64,000 nucleotides of DNA. Origin: Sycon ciliatum (lineage: Eukaryota; Porifera; Calcarea; Leucosolenida; Sycettidae). Each line of letters begins with the position of its first letter. Positions within the stretch are counted from its first letter, which is position 1. The translations under genes were made by a program, and so were the position numbers. Of this stretch, positions 54,301-57,300 are shown piece by piece. Under the pieces are notes generated by a model. The model made no database searches. It saw nothing but the letters and a program-made list of their open reading frames with translations, and had not been told where the DNA came from. The DNA lies in assembly GCF_964019385.1 (NCBI RefSeq), contig NC_088650.1, positions 29,847,161 through 29,911,160 on the forward strand. Direction: 5' to 3'.

Positions 54301-57300
54301 AATCCATTCTATTCCTGATGCCTCGTCGCGTCCCTGGTGGTAACAGTTTGGCATGGAAGTTTAACCTCATAGTGCATTGACTCATGGGGCTCCGTACTCC
54401 CCTCCTGTGCTAGAATTAACACCATAATTATTTGGCATGTAACCTCACTTCGTAGAGCACAACGGCGCGCTCTTCTTCTCCGTGATGTGCACAGTTGCAC
54501 CTTCTCTCCCCCCCCCCTCTGTATAGAGGTGACATAACTCGCATCATTTTATTTTTTGGCGCTACACTCTGCGTAACGCCATTCACAGAGCACAATGCGC
54601 GCTACCTTCTGCTGCTTCTCCTCCGTGATGTGCTAGTTGCGCCTTTTCTCTCTCTCTGTCATACTAGGTGACATAATTCGCATCTTTTTTGGCGCTACAC
54701 TCTGCGTATATACTGCTCTTGTGTGGCTTCCACGGTATTCATTGTTATTACCTGACGATGGCCAAGTGCCGAAACGTTGTAAAAATAACGGAACTGGTTC
54801 GGATGTGATATGCAGCGCTATGGGAATGGGTGTGTCCACCCGAATTCTTTTCACAGATGAAGCTGCAGGAAGCCTCAGCCCTTCTTCAAAGTCAATATAT
54901 GCTGTTATTACATGCCGGTATTGCCCTGATACTCGGCGAATAACACATACATATTTGACTAAGAGATCACAAGTTTCTGTGGGGGTCAATAATAAGAGAG
55001 TGATAAGTTACGATATTTGCAACTTTTGAGCTTTTTCTGAAAACATGGATGCGATTTCAGCAACTTGCACTTGTTTTGGCACGGTTGCGAAAAGCATAAG
55101 TTGCGAAAAATTATGGCATCTTTGGGAAAGCTAAGGGCTACTCCCGAGTTGCGTGCAGGAATATCTCCACGGTGATTTCCTTGTAAACGTGGATTTGCCT
55201 GTCGTGTGAATTTTTGTATTGTATTGTGCTTGAATATGGTGGTAAAGACACACCTGGCAATATGGCCGTAAATACACGCCTGCCCACACACGCTAGGCTG
55301 CAACGTTCTGGCACAGATAAGAGCTCTCCTCCTGTGACCACCACCACCACCATCAGTGCGCGCCTGGCGCCTAGTCGATGCATGGTTGGCGATATCCGAC
55401 ATAGCAGAAGATGACACAGCAACGACATACATGTAGCTCGATTGCGACGTACGTTTCGTTCCCGCTGGACTCATCAGGCAATCTTCTTCTTCTCGGATGT
55501 CTTCACACAGAGCTTTAGTATTTTACTCGGTAGAATGAAGTTGAAGACACCACTGCAGCTGTACTTATGGTTGAATATGGTGGTAAAGACACACCTGGCA
55601 ATATGGCGTTGTATTGTATTGAATTTATTTTACTTCCGCGGTGGCTCAACACTACAATGTACTACAACAAAGAGGACCGAAAAAACGATCATTTTCAGGA
55701 GATAAAAAAGGAAAAGAAATAGCAAACCAAAAACTAGATGAAGTGAGAAAAACAACAAAAGAAACAGGTACACATGTATATAAGCTGTATGTACACTCAA
55801 CTCTGTGGACAGCAACTGTTTCGCTCTGTTAGAGCTCCTCAGCACAGCTCAGAGGACCGAAGTGCAGCTCTTCGCAATGAAATACGTTTCCGTGAAGCAA
55901 AGAATTTTTATAAAGAAGCTGTATGTACATGTACATGTATGTCAGTTTGAGCACTTTGATCTGGGAAGGTACGTTTGGGCCTGGCTTAAATCTGGCTTTG
56001 GAAAATATATTTTTCATCGCTATCAGGTTAGGCCTCATTTTCTCTGTGCTGCGCTGATGAGTCCACAAAGGACGAAACAGCTCTGTCTGCAGATTGAGTA
56101 AGCTGTATAGTGTTTACCCTCACGTGGCAAAAACTCTGTTTCCGTAAAGAAGGTTTAATATGGTATCGCCTATTAGCAAGAGTACAATGTACATACATGT
56201 AACCATGGTAACCCAGGGGGTTATGTACTCTTGCCAATAGGGCATGGCATCTGTGAACGTTTCGGACCAAAAGACCAATCCCGAAAAGATTGTCTGGGTT
56301 CGAAAGGGGGCATGTCAACTGAGCCGGTACACTGTCTGTACAACACATACATGGCACTACTGATCAGCATGCGGCACATGACGTGTTTGATTGTTTGCGT
56401 GTGAATGCGGGGGTAGGTACACAGTGTTCTCGTTAGTTGCATGCAAGATAGACAATGCGACAGAAAGCAAAGCCCTTTGTGGGTTTTTTATCTCTCGCAC
56501 TGGTAATGTTCTGCTGGTGGCCCGGTCGAAATGCTAAGCCATAATACATGTTTGGCTAAAGCTGATAGCCAGTTACTGTTGTTGCAGACTCAGTGACGTC
56601 AGTACCATCAGTCAGTGTCGTGCAATGTTATCGCATGAGCTGATTGTTTTGTAACTGGTAGTGTTAGTGGACATTATAGCGTAACTTGTAGTTCCTGGGT
56701 CCTTTTTCTTTTCTATAAATTTATCCTTGGCTCTCCATCCGAGTCCATTCTTGCACGCCTGATGAGCCATCCTTATCTATGCAGCGAAACTATCGTCGTG
56801 TGAAACCGTTGCTTGTTACTGCTGCTTATTGCCCATCTAAGTTGTCTACGTGGAAGTACAGTGGTATTTTACTAAGGCGTTCGGTTTTGCATGTTCTTGT
56901 TCTCATAGCTTCCCCTTTAAAAAGGGGAAGTTGAACCTAAAATCAAATTTTCACCAGTTGTCGTCTTCGGGGTGCTGAGTCGAATAGTCTTGGTCCGAGG
57001 AAGCTGAGACGCTCCCTTCCTCCTTTATTCCCAATTGAACTCGCGCACTTCTGCCGAAACTGGGTGATTGCGCCCTACTAGACGGGGATTTATATGCACA
57101 ATGTCACTAAAAGCACCATTTCATTCCTATAAATGCACGGATGACCGCGATTGGTCCATTATGTTGTAGTCATTTGGACGCCGAATCGACTGGTTTTGGT
57201 CCGAAAAGGCTACGATGTAGCGTTCGGGCCCTTTCCCAATCGAACATGGTTGAACAAGCGGTCACGTGTCCCTTTCGTACACCAGTCACCTGGTCACTGT

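Follow-up and report, generated by a model that had tools for sequence, protein, structure and literature searches.

A type I hammerhead motif in a probable 5′-truncated retrozyme copy of the calcareous sponge Sycon ciliatum

We identified a type I hammerhead motif, H1, in a 64,000-nucleotide stretch of the Sycon ciliatum genome (the window), and interpret it, at a probability of roughly 0.88, as the self-cleaving motif of a small non-coding retroelement, namely a 5′-truncated copy of an animal non-LTR retrozyme. Type I hammerheads are well known in animal genomes and, according to passages of PMC7229834, reportedly lie for the most part inside retrozymes, so that the motif by itself is unsurprising; the kind of element is already known from other animals, and H1 is a further example of it. 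A sponge example may not have been published before: within the literature searched, no paper joined the hammerhead ribozyme with Porifera, or the terms hammerhead and ribozyme with Sycon, and the main text of PMC7229834 makes no mention of sponges or Porifera, a calcareous sponge not being among its animals.

The H1 hammerhead and its relatives in the window

The following features of the H1 family are referred to below (coordinates are those of the window):
56049–56092 (+), H1 type I hammerhead, predicted to cut after 56087
56042–56098 (+), H1 with its complete helix I (inner 5 bp, 4×3 internal loop, outer CTC/GAG)
55941–56101 (+), element carrying H1, a putative 5′-truncated copy of a 239-nt retrozyme family, the 5′ end being taken from genome copies
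55796–55915 (−), H3 element, a diverged relative of the H1 family, apparently inserted in the left flank of H1
16445–16557 (−), H5, a dispersed H1-family copy with its hammerhead core at 16494 and cut after 16461
25732–25835 (−), C25, a dispersed H1-family copy with a hammerhead that lacks helix II
39866–39933 (+), C39, a dispersed H1-family copy comprising only the part upstream of the hammerhead
18533–18588 (−), a weak relic of an H1-type hammerhead (21.1 bits with a model built from four window copies)

The core bases and three stems of H1 are present at the coordinates of the initial annotation: CTGATGA at 56054–56060, GAAA at 56074–56077 and the GTC triplet at 56085–56087, the letters of which agree with the predicted cut after 56087. 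The whole of 56042–56098 reads CTC TGTG CTGCG, CTGATGA, GTCC ACAAA GGAC, GAAA, CAGCTCTG TC^ and TGCAG ATT GAG, the caret being the predicted cut. Helix I consists of five pairs (one of them a G-U beside the cut), the 4×3 internal loop and then three CTC/GAG pairs, which fall beyond the 56049–56092 interval first annotated. Helix II has four pairs, and the short helix III is formed by A-U, C-G and A-U with a 4-nt loop or, alternatively, by one extra pair with a 2-nt loop; both the helix I internal loop (TGTG/ATT) and loop II (ACAAA) are present. H1 thus displays the hallmarks of type I, i.e., CTGANGA, GAAA, NTH, three helices and ends entering through helix I.

The annotation had further held that such a motif is very unlikely to arise by chance, and this is borne out. 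The exact core pattern has one match in the window and none in 100 shuffles, and a full descriptor of core bases plus minimum helices is matched by five loci (six scan rows, one locus appearing twice) with 0.03–0.07 expected, the control being five loci in 200 order-1 and 14 loci in 200 order-3 random windows. The annotation had also named the lack of an above-threshold covariance-model hit as a ground for abandoning its claim and, read literally, this is what was obtained: the Infernal alignment of the Rfam Hammerhead_1 model (RF00163) covers exactly 56049–56092, in agreement with the model in topology and core, with a score of 25.2 bits where the gathering score is 34 (E = 0.00048 on a 351-nt segment and 0.088 on the whole window), and no locus in the whole window reaches the latter. 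The gathering score is a curator's threshold and not a structural feature, and the low value of H1 can be attributed to the strictness of the model, as its relatives elsewhere in the genome score 25.4–30.1 bits and the copies of a second, 352-nt family 35.4–37. Moreover, the lowest-energy fold of the H1 copy differs from the hammerhead (−17.8 versus −10.3 kcal/mol), and its minimum free energy is no better than that of shuffles (z = −0.58); the competing fold counts against strong activity of this single copy. Passages of PMC7761336 indicate that hammerheads of this kind are in many cases active only as dimers.

Related copies bear on the same question. H1 matches four further places in the window (16551–16452, 25793–25724, 39883–39933 and 55854–55795), and in a leave-one-out profile analysis the E-values are 2e-24 for H1, 2.6e-14 for H5, 1e-6 for H3, 3.8e-10 for C25 and 4.1e-5 for C39. 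The H3 hammerhead spans 55854–55796, with its core at 55842 and its cut after 55808; helices II and III of H5 are partly decayed. When H1, H5, H3 and C25 are aligned, 57 of 61 cells pair (93.4%), and two-sided compensatory changes occur in 5 of 16 pairs, a figure that 3 of 500 shuffles, and no slid version, attained; the sample is a small one of four sequences, among which C25 has lost helix II, and C39 was excluded because its hammerhead part is missing. A reading of C39 as a permuted circle junction was discarded, since a doubled H1 unit gave nothing beyond short matches.

A purely fortuitous motif could explain the Rfam score below gathering and the unexceptional folding energy; yet it would leave unexplained the absence of the core pattern from 100 shuffles, the descriptor excess, the covariation and the family of copies across the genome, and with that family in hand chance origin is refuted, leaving it a next to negligible probability. 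On these sequence-level grounds the H1 hammerhead motif is real, and the type I assignment in animal DNA is strengthened by the compensatory helix changes. H1 itself, as far as its letters tell, is one old, 5′-truncated, single copy with a weak helix III, the activity of which is a prediction only. The density of copies seen in the window is not typical everywhere, as no H1-family copy was found at E < 0.01 in the 40 kb to its right; a scan of viral contigs with the H1-family flank yielded no hit. Separately, 56759–56797 (+) holds a doubtful candidate hammerhead (CTGATGA, GAAAC, GTC and a 5-bp helix I), which passes the descriptor with two contiguous base pairs in helix II and one in helix III and has no Rfam match at E ≤ 10.

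The juxtaposition of H1 and H3 can be resolved with the aid of two pairs of direct repeats:
55781–55790 (+), left copy of the 10-bp repeat TAAGCTGTAT, likely the H1 target-site duplication
56099–56108 (+), right copy of TAAGCTGTAT
55782–55795 (+), left 14-bp repeat AAGCTGTATGTACA flanking H3, read as the H3 target-site duplication
55916–55929 (+), right copy of AAGCTGTATGTACA

The TAAGCTGTAT pair brackets H3 and H1 together and the AAGCTGTATGTACA pair brackets H3 alone. In the simplest order of events suggested by these repeats, H1 would have inserted earlier, with a 10-bp duplication and about 16 nt of filler on its 5′ side; H3 would have come later, entering the left flank of H1 in reverse orientation and making its own 14-bp duplication. 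Such a nested insertion accounts for all three copies of AAGCTGTAT. The head-to-head arrangement and the shared TAAGCTGTAT bracket could also be taken to mean that the two arose in a single event, like the paired arrays of the 352-nt family described below. This is rather unlikely, however: over 60 nt the identity of H3 to H1 is only about 75%, too low for a common RNA source, whereas 39 other copies are 91–95% identical to H1, and H3 has a perfect 14-bp flanking repeat of its own that covers most of the H1 flank. The same divergence and separate repeat led us to reject a twin-primed insertion of the pair.

The 239-nt family across the genome

A search of the 538-Mb Sycon ciliatum assembly with positions 55980–56110 as query returned 2093 first-look candidates, of which the best 40 were scored, giving 41 matches. 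Thirty-nine of the 40 non-self matches are 91–95% identical to the query and one is 89% identical; among these best 40 of 2093, all end at positions 117–130 of the 131-nt query and 32 of them at 117–123. Twelve loci were retrieved (L035–L046, L035 being the window's own copy; L036 and L042 have near-identical flanks and may represent one duplicated insertion). Every one of the 12 has the hammerhead, and their mutual similarity is lost just past ATTGAG: the 3′ end is common, about 11 nt after the cut, and the 5′ ends are spread over the unit. By comparison with these copies, the H1 element extends from about 55941 to about 56098–56101. The unit length of 239 nt comes from L041, which runs through a second cut site (1.07 units). 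In L047 two units stand in tandem, their cuts about 227 nt apart, though the pair is not intact, as GAAA of the second hammerhead reads GAAC. Within the H1 family, multiple units were seen only in L041 and L047 and in a single pair of C4 matches, the latter at the same place as L047. Exact target duplications occur in a minority of the 12 loci, namely L043, which is flanked by a perfect 15-bp repeat, and H1 with its 10 bp; flank matches of 9–11 bp, some of them repeat-like, were noted in L036, L042 and L046, and 7 of the 12 loci have no flanking duplication of 8 bp or more. As judged from its sequences, then, the H1 family is a dispersed one with retrozyme architecture: a 239-nt unit, a fixed 3′ end and variable 5′ ends.

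When 11 H1-family loci (L036–L041 and L043–L047, leaving aside L035 and L042) were compared with Rfam, RF00163 matched at the family copy in 10 (25.4–30.1 bits) and L036 matched HH9, all below the cut-off; the Rfam cut-off thus misses the 239-nt family. The second hammerhead of L047 is not among these matches. A genome-wide RF00163 search gave at least 76236 first-look candidates; among the 74 scored, at least 21 have E ≤ 0.001 and at least four exceed the cut-off. The H1-family locus L045 also contains, at 16–59 (+), a second hammerhead that surpasses the cut-off with 37 bits.

In several respects the family parallels animal non-LTR retrozymes, described in passages of PMC7229834 as repeats of 150–450 bp with type I hammerheads and circular RNAs of about 170–400 nt; unit sizes given there are 220–240 bp in coral, 350–390 bp in mussel and 330/350 bp in axolotl (PMC7229834, Cervera and de la Peña 2020). 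The shared traits are the type I hammerhead, units of 239 or 352 nt, the lack of a gene or LTR, tandem and partial-tandem copies (L041, L047 and the 352-nt arrays, H1 being single and truncated) and target duplications longer than 4 bp (9–17 bp in the 352-nt family, 15 in L043, 14 at H3 and 10 at H1). An ordinary SINE or other dispersed repeat carrying an unused hammerhead-like sequence would likewise produce single, 5′-truncated copies with a fixed 3′ end, as most of the copies retrieved are. Nevertheless, we consider this unlikely, because compensatory changes preserve the helices in diverged copies, and because two copies cross the cut or repeat the unit over it, a feature not accounted for by a linear SINE transcript with its end close to the cut.

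Under the preferred retrozyme interpretation, one can envisage that the 239-nt units are transcribed, that the hammerhead cuts the transcript at unit length and that the pieces, by analogy with published animal retrozymes, are probably closed into circles. A borrowed reverse transcriptase would then start on a nicked chromosome at a fixed RNA site 11 nt past the cut and run backwards for a variable distance, at times beyond the cut site, to leave copies with a common 3′ end, differing 5′ ends and possibly duplicated target flanks. The sequence basis for this scheme comprises the family itself, its fixed 3′ end and variable 5′ ends, two cases of read-through at the cut, the few target duplications and the compensatory changes.

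The 352-nt family and its insertion record

A second hammerhead-bearing element, H4, lies 0.4–0.8 kb from H1:
55227–55608 (−), H4 element of the 352-nt family (a 341-nt variant, present as 1.12 units)
55440–55483 (−), H4 hammerhead, predicted to cut after 55446 (RF00163 32.8 bits, gathering score 34)
55214–55226 (+), left 13-bp target-site duplication of H4 (TTGTATTGTATTG)
55609–55621 (+), right 13-bp target-site duplication of H4 (TTGTATTGTATTG)

The sequence TTGTATTGTATTG occurs in the window at only these two sites, and abutting them is a 37-nt perfect terminal direct repeat (55230–55266 and 55571–55607). In the genome, H4 has 136 matches among the best 40 of 1467 candidates scored; the full-length ones among these scored candidates are 79–82% identical to it, and many are in tandem every 352 bp, the unit length being that of L025. 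Most hammerheads of this family (up to three being listed per strand and locus) keep all the core bases and both outer helices, with changes in a few units, and in the five loci tried RF00163 has 16 hits of 35.4–37 bits; these copies pass the cut-off of 34, unlike H4 (32.8) and H1 (25.2). Complete distinct units show 98.6% identity when they lie in the same insertion (58 pairs) and 96.5% when they come from different ones (320 pairs), which suggests a young family. Folded as a circle, the 341-nt H4 unit does not exceed shuffles in stability (z = −0.3), and its GC content of 0.504 differs from the value below 50% given in passages of PMC7229834 for animal retrozymes. Locus L011 additionally contains, at 1207–1240 (+), a hammerhead of different sequence (CTGATGA, GGGGTGAATTCCCC, GAAA, a GTA cut and a 6-bp helix I), which suggests a further family.

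The insertions of the 352-nt family were read in 30 loci (L001–L030) that comprise 17 insertions at 16 places and represent best-scoring matches, not a random sample. In 12 of the 17, a minus array is joined 5′ to 5′ to a plus array, i.e., the insertion is head-to-head. Target duplications of 9–17 bp are found in 12 of the 15 insertions with both ends scored (L001, L006, L010, L011, L012, L013, L021, L022b, L023, L024, L027 and L030); the three without a clear duplication, L016, L017 and L018/L015, share 7, 5 and 5 nt, respectively, which gives a rough background for shared-flank length. Left out of this scoring were the C12 array (L002–L009 without L006, plus L019), the right end of which has an unusual phase and no evident duplication, and the first L022 insertion, which is cut by the edge of the locus.

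With position 1 of the 352-nt unit set at the first base after the cut, the outer 3′ ends of ten head-to-head insertions are 241/273, 231/278, 284/238, 239/279, 242/282, 279/241, 239/153, 246/282, 243/287 and 250/277. In nine of the ten, one outer end falls at 231–250 and the other at 273–287, with no fixed order; the exception is L023, and an extra block is present in L006. The ends of single-orientation insertions are 232 (H4; 241 by gapped alignment), 231, 238, 245 and 284. The arrays, which comprise up to about nine units, traverse the ribozyme cut as many as about nine times, and each of the two arms can be longer than a full unit (e.g., L030). As the arrays run through the cut repeatedly, their sequences imply that the template must be continuous across it; a circle and an uncut multimer fit the data alike. 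The junctions of the ten head-to-head insertions and L003 range from 9 nt of filler to 5 nt of overlap, and none of these 11 has a palindrome longer than 6 nt per arm (1–6). An origin of the inverted arrays by self-priming fold-back was rejected, given that junction palindromes are absent and the unit phases differ between the two sides.

Comparison with known systems sets these insertions apart in part. The text of PMC7229834 makes no mention of inverted, head-to-head or opposite copies, and the head-to-head inverted arrays within one target duplication distinguish the 352-nt family from the animal retrozymes described there. LINE-1 twin priming yields inverted 5′ ends, with the inversion inside one target duplication. 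The 352-nt inversions resemble it in this last regard, but differ in that both of their outer ends are near-fixed initiation sites and that the arms may exceed one unit.

Penelope-like elements, the proposed helper and other features of the window

Either Penelope-like elements or LINEs have been proposed, in passages of PMC7229834 and PMC11722881, to move animal retrozymes, and the role of circular RNA as the template is likewise stated there as a proposal. According to passages of PMC3846280, Penelope-like elements have a pseudo-LTR (pLTR) and an adjacent inverted one, most often head-to-head, target duplications of 8–10 bp (absent from some insertions) and, optionally, a 31-bp tail at one of the inverted ends, the inverted structures being accounted for by palindrome-based self-priming. 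In vitro, a purified Penelope-like protein was found to cut both strands, to extend them and to begin reverse transcription inside the RNA (PMC11167929); a 30–40 bp tail corresponds there to the stretch between two start sites, and hammerhead cleavage was not required in that system. The 352-nt family resembles these elements in its inverted head-to-head copies and short target duplications, and its two 3′ ends about 40 nt apart parallel the 30–40 bp tail: nine of ten insertions combine Penelope-type head-to-head ends and such a tail in one duplication, an arrangement not seen in the H1 family. Unlike Penelope-like elements, the retrozyme units have no gene and their hammerheads possess helix III; unlike the bdelloid ones, the 11 junctions are devoid of palindromes.

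On this pattern of insertion ends, the helper enzyme of the 352-nt family is probably of the Penelope-like kind. We hold the odds to be even on a fuller scheme, in which 352-nt retrozymes would insert by Penelope-type cutting of both strands, two-site priming on circular or multimeric RNA and 5′–5′ joining of the cDNAs. Such a machine would cut the two target strands 9–17 bp apart and prime on each at either of two positions, separated by about 40 nt, on the retrozyme RNA; copying on each strand would extend over varying distances, up to several turns, before the two cDNAs are joined 5′ to 5′. If this is true, the genome directly records the rolling reverse transcription of circular RNAs, and the 352-nt insertions point to the class of enzyme that moves animal retrozymes. 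The Sycon copies provide a readable record, with fixed starts, copying across the cut, and insertions that are two-sided and bear a Penelope-like tail, and thus render the question of retrozyme enzyme and template testable from genome data alone in other animals; that of the enzyme can also be addressed at the bench with a known Penelope-like protein.

The end of a GIY-YIG gene (53714–54232, +; C-terminal and 5′-truncated) lies 1.8 kb from H1. It scores 26 bits with Pfam PF01541 (cut-off 22.6), and a protein search found seven relatives, including two EukProt entries whose scpid names we take to be Sycon identifiers; a PDB search with this piece returned no match. Judging by its motif, the gene is presumably Penelope-like rather than another GIY-YIG gene. 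Comparison of the 352-nt unit with 53400–55213 gave best local scores of 18 and 15, gapped and scattered, in a run with no shuffled control; as there is no clear similarity to the gene end, only the kind of helper is suggested and not its identity. Beyond the gene end is a 134-bp tandem duplication (54439–54708). By eye, we also noted a stretch reminiscent of minimal Penelope-type hammerheads at 54741–54790 (+), reading CTGACGA, T, GGC..GCC, GAAAC and GTT, with a helix I of 4+5 bp and helix II preceded by one additional base; a strict scan of the window for such hammerheads found none, so it remains a reading by eye.

Given this gene end, with its 26 bits over 22.6 and seven relatives, and given that passages of PMC7761336 ascribe type I hammerheads to Penelope-like elements, H1 might be regarded as part of the pseudo-LTR of such an element. 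This is very unlikely: the retrieved H1 and H4 copies are isolated 239- or 352-nt units or arrays of these; H1 possesses nucleotides in helix III and an internal loop in helix I, both of which the minimal type described in the same passages lacks; and the best local scores of the 352-nt unit against 53400–55213, in that run with no shuffled control, are 18 and 15. The 239- and 352-nt units are, moreover, too short for a reverse transcriptase plus GIY-YIG gene. We retain the retrozyme interpretation of H1 and read the GIY-YIG remnant as an element separate from the retrozymes.

The remainder of the window includes a cyclin-Y-like gene of at least three exons (30864–36735, +), the first of which ends near 31677; further exons were recognized by eye near 35808–35939 and 36527–36735, and the exon query 30864–31691 is 100% identical, over 91% of its length, to Sycon ciliatum cyclin-Y-like protein 1. 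An intron of this gene has a long, near-perfect hairpin (31914–32080, +) that scores 57.6 of 211 bits with Rfam MIR8562, a match probably due to a MITE-like inverted repeat. Two pieces of a DDE transposase (Pfam DDE_Tnp_4) lie in different frames at 51626–52275 (−). Finally, repeats at 49880–50744 and 56921–58251, both direct and inverted and with the longest 86–88% identical, probably represent a non-autonomous DNA transposon.
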